64,000 nucleotides of DNA, from positions 39,041-103,040 of the forward strand of contig JAJFFJ010000003.1 in the NCBI GenBank assembly GCA_021776685.1, read 5' to 3'. The notes beneath the pieces were generated by a model that was not told where the DNA came from, ran no database searches, and saw only the letters and a list, made by a program, of their open reading frames with translations. The translations under genes were made by a program, and so were the position numbers. The stretch comes from Alphaproteobacteria bacterium (GTDB taxonomy: Bacteria; Pseudomonadota; Alphaproteobacteria; Bin65). Below, one piece after another: positions 30,139 through 30,732 of this stretch; the first letter of the stretch is position 1; every line of letters starts with the position of its first letter.

Positions 30139-30276
30139 GGGGGTTGAATCGAAAAATTCGATCCCCACATAAGTCATGTACCAGGCGCCGCATGTCGGGC
30201 CCGGGCACTGTACCAGAATGGAATACCGTCCCAATGGAGGTATTCCCCAACATTGCTCTAACGGAGGATGTGTCTG
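30139..30276 (+). promoter_or_regulatory. ROSE-type RNA thermometer in the small heat-shock gene leader
   Basis: The leader carries three hairpins. The first has arms ATCGAA (30148-30153) and TTCGAT (30157-30162), flanked by GGGG and CCCC. The second has arms 30220-30227 and 30239-30246 (8 bp). The last hides the ribosome binding site. In it C51-G70, A52-U69, U53-A68, U54-G67, C56-G66, U57-A65, C58-G64 and U59-G63 pair (numbers plus 30200), with G55 bulged and loop AAC. UUGCU paired to GGAGG with one bulged G is the hallmark of ROSE elements, which melt at heat-shock temperature. Pairing is read from sequence; melting is inferred. Confidence 0.8.
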
Positions 30277-30732
30277 ATGAACACAATCGATCTGTCTCCC
30301 CTATTTCGTTCCACCATCGGCTTCGACCGGGTTTCGCGCCTGCTCGATTCCGCCCTTAGCGGCGGAGAGGCGCCGTCCTATCCGCCCTACAACATCGAGA
30401 AAGTCGAGGACAACCGGTATCGCATCGTGTTTGCAGTTGCCGGATTTGGCGAGAATGACCTGACTGTCACGGTGAAAGAGAACACCCTGCTGGTATCCGG
30501 CAAAGTGGAAGGCGACGGCGAGAATGTCCGTTACCTGCACCGTGGGATCGCCGGCCGTGCCTTCGAGCGCCGCTTCGAACTGGCGGACCATATCCAGGTG
30601 GACGCCGGCCGGTTGGAAAACGGCCTGCTGATTATCGACCTGACGCGGGAAGTGCCGGAGGCCCTCAAGCCTCGCAGTATTCCGATTGCGGCGGGATCCG
30701 CCAAGGTGATCGAGCAGAAGGTCGCCGCATAA
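30277..30732 (+). CDS. Small heat-shock protein, Hsp20/alpha-crystallin family (IbpA-like)
   Basis: This ATP-independent holdase keeps unfolded proteins soluble for DnaK/ClpB. The 151-residue protein has an N-terminal arm (LSPLFRSTIGFDRVSRLLDSAL), an alpha-crystallin domain at about 35-125 (PPYNIEKVEDNRYRIVFAVAGFGENDLTVTV through GLLIIDLTREVPE), and a short tail with the I-x-I-like segment RSIPIAA. An ATG at 30268 abuts the GGAGG, so the ATG at 30277 (MNTIDLSP) with 9-base spacing is preferred. Translation is probably heat-controlled by the ROSE-type leader. A strong terminator follows. Confidence 0.94.
   Translation: MNTIDLSPLFRSTIGFDRVSRLLDSALSGGEAPSYPPYNIEKVEDNRYRIVFAVAGFGENDLTVTVKENTLLVSGKVEGDGENVRYLHRGIAGRAFERRFELADHIQVDAGRLENGLLIIDLTREVPEALKPRSIPIAAGSAKVIEQKVAA

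Follow-up and report, generated by a model that had tools for sequence, protein, structure and literature searches.

A probable ROSE-type RNA thermometer in the leader of an alphaproteobacterial ibpA-like hsp20 gene

The analysed window, a stretch of 64,000 nucleotides of alphaproteobacterial DNA, contains an ibpA-like hsp20 gene with a leader of ~100 nt that very probably includes a ROSE-type RNA thermometer; the gene would be transcribed from a sigma-32-type promoter. Comparison with related sequences supports the proposed structure and promoter of the leader, and opening of its hairpin on heating may be expected by analogy with studied ROSE elements. The original prediction of a ROSE element proved right in its essentials, given a hairpin with a bulged G at the Shine-Dalgarno (SD) sequence, a small heat-shock gene downstream, ROSE as the only matching Rfam family and strongly conserved, covarying homologous leaders, with changes to the extent of the leader.

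ROSE elements occupy leaders of small heat-shock genes, and the 151-residue product of the gene starting with the ATG at 30277 matches PF00011 (Hsp20) with an E-value of 3.3e-18. The nearest NCBIfam model for this Hsp20 protein is that of IbpA (NF008013, E-value 1.2e-45), the match being below the equivalog cut-off. The features assigned are collected in the table.

Features assigned in and around the hsp20 leader (positions are those of the window)
Feature	Position	Strand	Basis
Sigma-32 (RpoH)-type promoter: -35 TTGAAT (30144-30149), N13, -10 CCCCACAT (30163-30170)	30144-30170	+	Pattern search, relatives
Probable 5' leader, ~100 nt	30177-30276	+	Start inferred from promoter position, plus/minus a few nt
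ROSE hairpin I (approximate), CCAGGCGCC...GGGCCCGG	30181-30208	+	RF00435 alignment; partly paired in MFE and centroid folds
ROSE hairpin II, GGAAUACC-G-UCC-CAAU-GGA-GGUAUUCC	30219-30245 (approximate)	+	MFE and centroid fold
ROSE hairpin III, ACAUUGCUCU AAC GGAGGAUGU, written ACAUU[G]CUCU-AAC-GGAGGAUGU	30250-30271	+	Folds, conservation, covariation
Shine-Dalgarno GGAGG, 9 nt 5' of ATG	30263-30267	+	Sequence
Hsp20/IbpA-like small heat-shock protein gene, 151 aa	30277-30732	+	PF00011, NF008013

The SD-masking hairpin

The proposal that the last hairpin hides the GGAGG around a single bulged G30255 is borne out by the sequence and by the folds. Within the ACAUUGCUCU stretch (30250-30259), UUGCUCU (30253-30259) pairs with the GGAGG at 30263-30267, leaving one unpaired G, 30255, and the folded stem reads ACAUU-[G]-CUCU / GGAG-GAUGU. 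A feature of ROSE elements is a U(U/C)GCU in the 3'-most hairpin that is paired to the SD around a conserved bulged G opposite the latter; the corresponding segment here is UUGCU (30253-30257), with G30255 lying between paired columns and invariant in an alignment of 36 sequences. The MFE fold of 30139-30290 includes hairpin III and the centroid includes its core, and when the leader is folded alone at 37 C, the ROSE pair probabilities range from 0.62 to 0.97. The + strand of the 64-kb window has one such T(T/C)GCT...GGAGG arrangement, searched as T(T/C)GCT-N-(A/G)GAGG.

The UCUCC of the early codons (within 30277-30306) can also pair with the SD, and folding programs favour this pairing over the conserved ROSE hairpin. 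It might be argued that the SD is hidden mainly by this early coding sequence (CUCC, ~30296-30300), in which case a hairpin between leader and coding region, not a ROSE element, would limit translation; when the fold includes 30 nt of coding sequence, four of the five SD bases are indeed predicted to pair with it at a probability of at least ~0.9 over 25-37 C, and the ROSE pairs drop to 0.05 or less. However, across 88 homologous leaders SD:coding pairing is at least 0.5 in just six (the present leader among those listed) and has a median of 0.01, whereas the ROSE core pairing has a median of 0.88, and the UCUCCC stretch encodes Ser-Pro of the conserved protein start. As the main lock, the SD:coding pairing predicted by folding was therefore rejected as not conserved, and this reading is considered very unlikely. 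A two-state switch, with the SD alternating between the ROSE hairpin and early-codon pairing, is regarded as exceedingly improbable; if true, it would give the thermometer a further lock peculiar to this lineage.

Promoter, upstream hairpins and leader extent

The consensus for sigma-32 promoters is CTTGAA-N(13-18)-CNCCATAT (PMC3669281), and upstream of the hsp20 gene a similar -35/-10 arrangement, TTGAAT-N13-CCCCACAT, is present, the deviations being G for C before TTGAA and C for T at one -10 position. The pattern TTGAA-N13-16-CCCCAYAT is found at three places in the 4.54-Mb genome, two of them before its two hsp20 genes, and the reversed pattern, used as a control, has zero occurrences in the genome. 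The third match, in a cytochrome c oxidase region, was taken as chance. Genomes of the same family have CTTGAAG/T-N-CCCCA at the corresponding place, and a looser promoter pattern is present at -180 to -90 in 52 of 102 homologous leaders, compared with 20 of 426 others. Transcription from the putative promoter at 30144-30170 would be expected to depend on RpoH.

The position of the promoter bears on the extent of the leader, which had been predicted to comprise 138 bases from 30139. Because the promoter occupies 30144-30170, transcription probably starts near 30177, giving a leader of ~100 nt; this value agrees with the start of the RF00435 match at 30181 and with the estimated median leader length of 98.5 nt in homologues with a promoter match. 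The hairpin at 30139-30166 was rejected as part of the thermometer, in that it spans the promoter and is not conserved in family members. Since the latter keep the promoter and not the hairpin, 30139-30166 in all likelihood precedes the transcription start and is not part of the RNA.

Two upstream ROSE hairpins, as originally predicted, do exist, at ~30181-30208 and ~30219-30245, but the 30139-30166 segment is not one of them. Together with 30250-30271, and leaving aside that segment, they give a number of stem-loops within the two to four that are characteristic of ROSE elements. In homologues the helix that matches hairpin II has 92% pairing, and each of the five pairs counted shows changes on both sides.

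Homologous leaders and covariance searches

The deciding evidence comes from leaders other than the one in the window. Among 103 hsp20 leaders, selected by protein alone, U(U/C)GCU is present at -30 to -17 in 99, the figure for leaders that precede other reading frames being 16 of 500. When 36 alphaproteobacterial leaders are aligned without the window sequence, the same hairpin is obtained, with the C-G and U-A core pairs in 36/36, the bulged G invariant and a lower stem that has changes on both sides. Conserved structure with compensatory changes, as expected of a ROSE element, is likewise found in 71 leaders, where 93.2% of cells are paired versus 38.8-52% with the partner slid, and 116 cells have double changes versus 36.8 in shuffles; fitting of this alignment to the model somewhat favours these figures. 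In five homologous leaders U(U/C)GCU is kept and the SD is shorter (AAGGAU, AAGGAC), which suggests that these are ROSE variants with weaker SDs.

These comparisons also bear on whether the hairpin could have arisen by chance, i.e. from a run of pyrimidines resembling an anti-SD, upstream of an ordinary gene that is under RpoH alone. Two observations would fit such a reading: the whole fold exceeds those of shuffles in stability by a modest margin (z -1.97), and the Rfam score lies within the noise of the genome. Against it, the same hairpin is conserved and covaries in the 71 homologous leaders, and the motif is enriched in hsp20 leaders over those of other reading frames. A chance origin appears extremely unlikely.

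Covariance models built without the window point the same way as the alignments in favour of a ROSE-type element. The first model (R1) ranks the leader first in the 4.5-Mb genome with 21.9 bits, the next place having 21.0, and after one iteration the second (R2) again places it first, with 24.4 bits, the next having 17.0; with these held-out models the E-value is 0.0034 within the window and, genome-wide, a modest 0.245. Two other R1 matches in the genome that were examined lie among long reading frames and not before hsp20, and were taken as chance.

At the gathering threshold no Rfam model matches the window. Once the threshold is relaxed, the leader matches a single one of 4227 Rfam models, RF00435 (ROSE), which aligns over its full length (1-94) to 30181-30281, with a score of 20.2 bits that falls short of the gathering score of 45 bits; the leader is hence filed as ROSE-type and not as an RF00435 match. 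No place in the genome scores higher with RF00435 than the hsp20 leader, but the score alone proves little, because other genome places score nearly equally (19.3-19.4 bits). The search with ROSE models that the original prediction proposed gives matches in both the present and homologous leaders, all of them below the Rfam cut-off. At the threshold, RF00435 is found in none of 61 genomes (the window's own and 60 relatives), and the threshold is therefore narrow for these lineages. Sub-threshold ROSE matches of 21.5-30.8 bits are present in 13 of the 61; all 14 of the listed ROSE-model matches in relatives directly adjoin the start of the orthologous hsp20 gene, and two more homologues score 41-43 bits with the ROSE model.

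Temperature response and relation to known thermometers

Established work on ROSE elements describes a 3' hairpin that covers the SD in the cold and becomes looser with warming, with RpoH raising transcription (PMC3669281, PMC4166951). By analogy, at low temperature hairpin III would pair UUGCUCU with the SD around the bulged G30255, so blocking ribosome binding. On heat shock RpoH would raise transcription from the 30144-30170 promoter, and the weak, bulged helix would loosen, enabling translation to start. In ViennaRNA folds the hairpin does not clearly open from 25 to 42 C (SD pairing of ~0.81 versus ~0.82), and this calculation was not used as support. The flat computed response is judged to be partly expected, because ROSE elements sense temperature via non-canonical pairs (PMC4166951), which the program does not model. 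In silico deletion of G30255 raises SD pairing from 0.81 to ~0.95, which agrees with the deletion experiment that the original prediction suggested.

The second hsp20 gene of the genome is also preceded (region around 64450-64713 of C67, minus strand) by a sigma-32-type promoter, TTGAA-N15-CCCCATAT, and by a leader whose 3' hairpin, CUC-G-CUC/GAG-GAG, masks the SD and has a bulged G. This leader is detected by none of the Rfam ROSE models; its hairpin motif recurs in three genomes of the same family, the exact pattern not being found in six others. It is a probable second ROSE-like element, and both hsp20 genes are probably regulated through a sigma-32-type promoter together with a hairpin of the ROSE-like kind.

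Among ROSE-type thermometers, a known kind, the leader in the window counts as a new but ordinary case, with its boundaries corrected. It extends the known ROSE range by one alphaproteobacterial lineage, and RF00435 at its curated threshold misses all such leaders in 61 genomes; in other respects the biology is as expected. With RF00435 ROSE elements, of the ROSE1 type of Bradyrhizobium japonicum hspA, also from the alphaproteobacteria, the leader shares three hairpins, a length of ~100 nt and hsp20 downstream, as well as a bulged G amid the pairs between U(U/C)GCU and the SD. It differs in its score (20.2 bits, i.e. below 45) and in the sequences of hairpins I and II, which have diverged. With the ROSE-like ibpA thermometers of Pseudomonas, for which the mechanism has been shown experimentally (PMC3669281), it has in common an ibpA-like gene, a sigma-32 promoter and an SD-masking U(U/C)GCU hairpin. 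However, the Pseudomonas leaders are 61-62 nt long with two hairpins (PMC3669281), whereas the present leader has ~100 nt and three.
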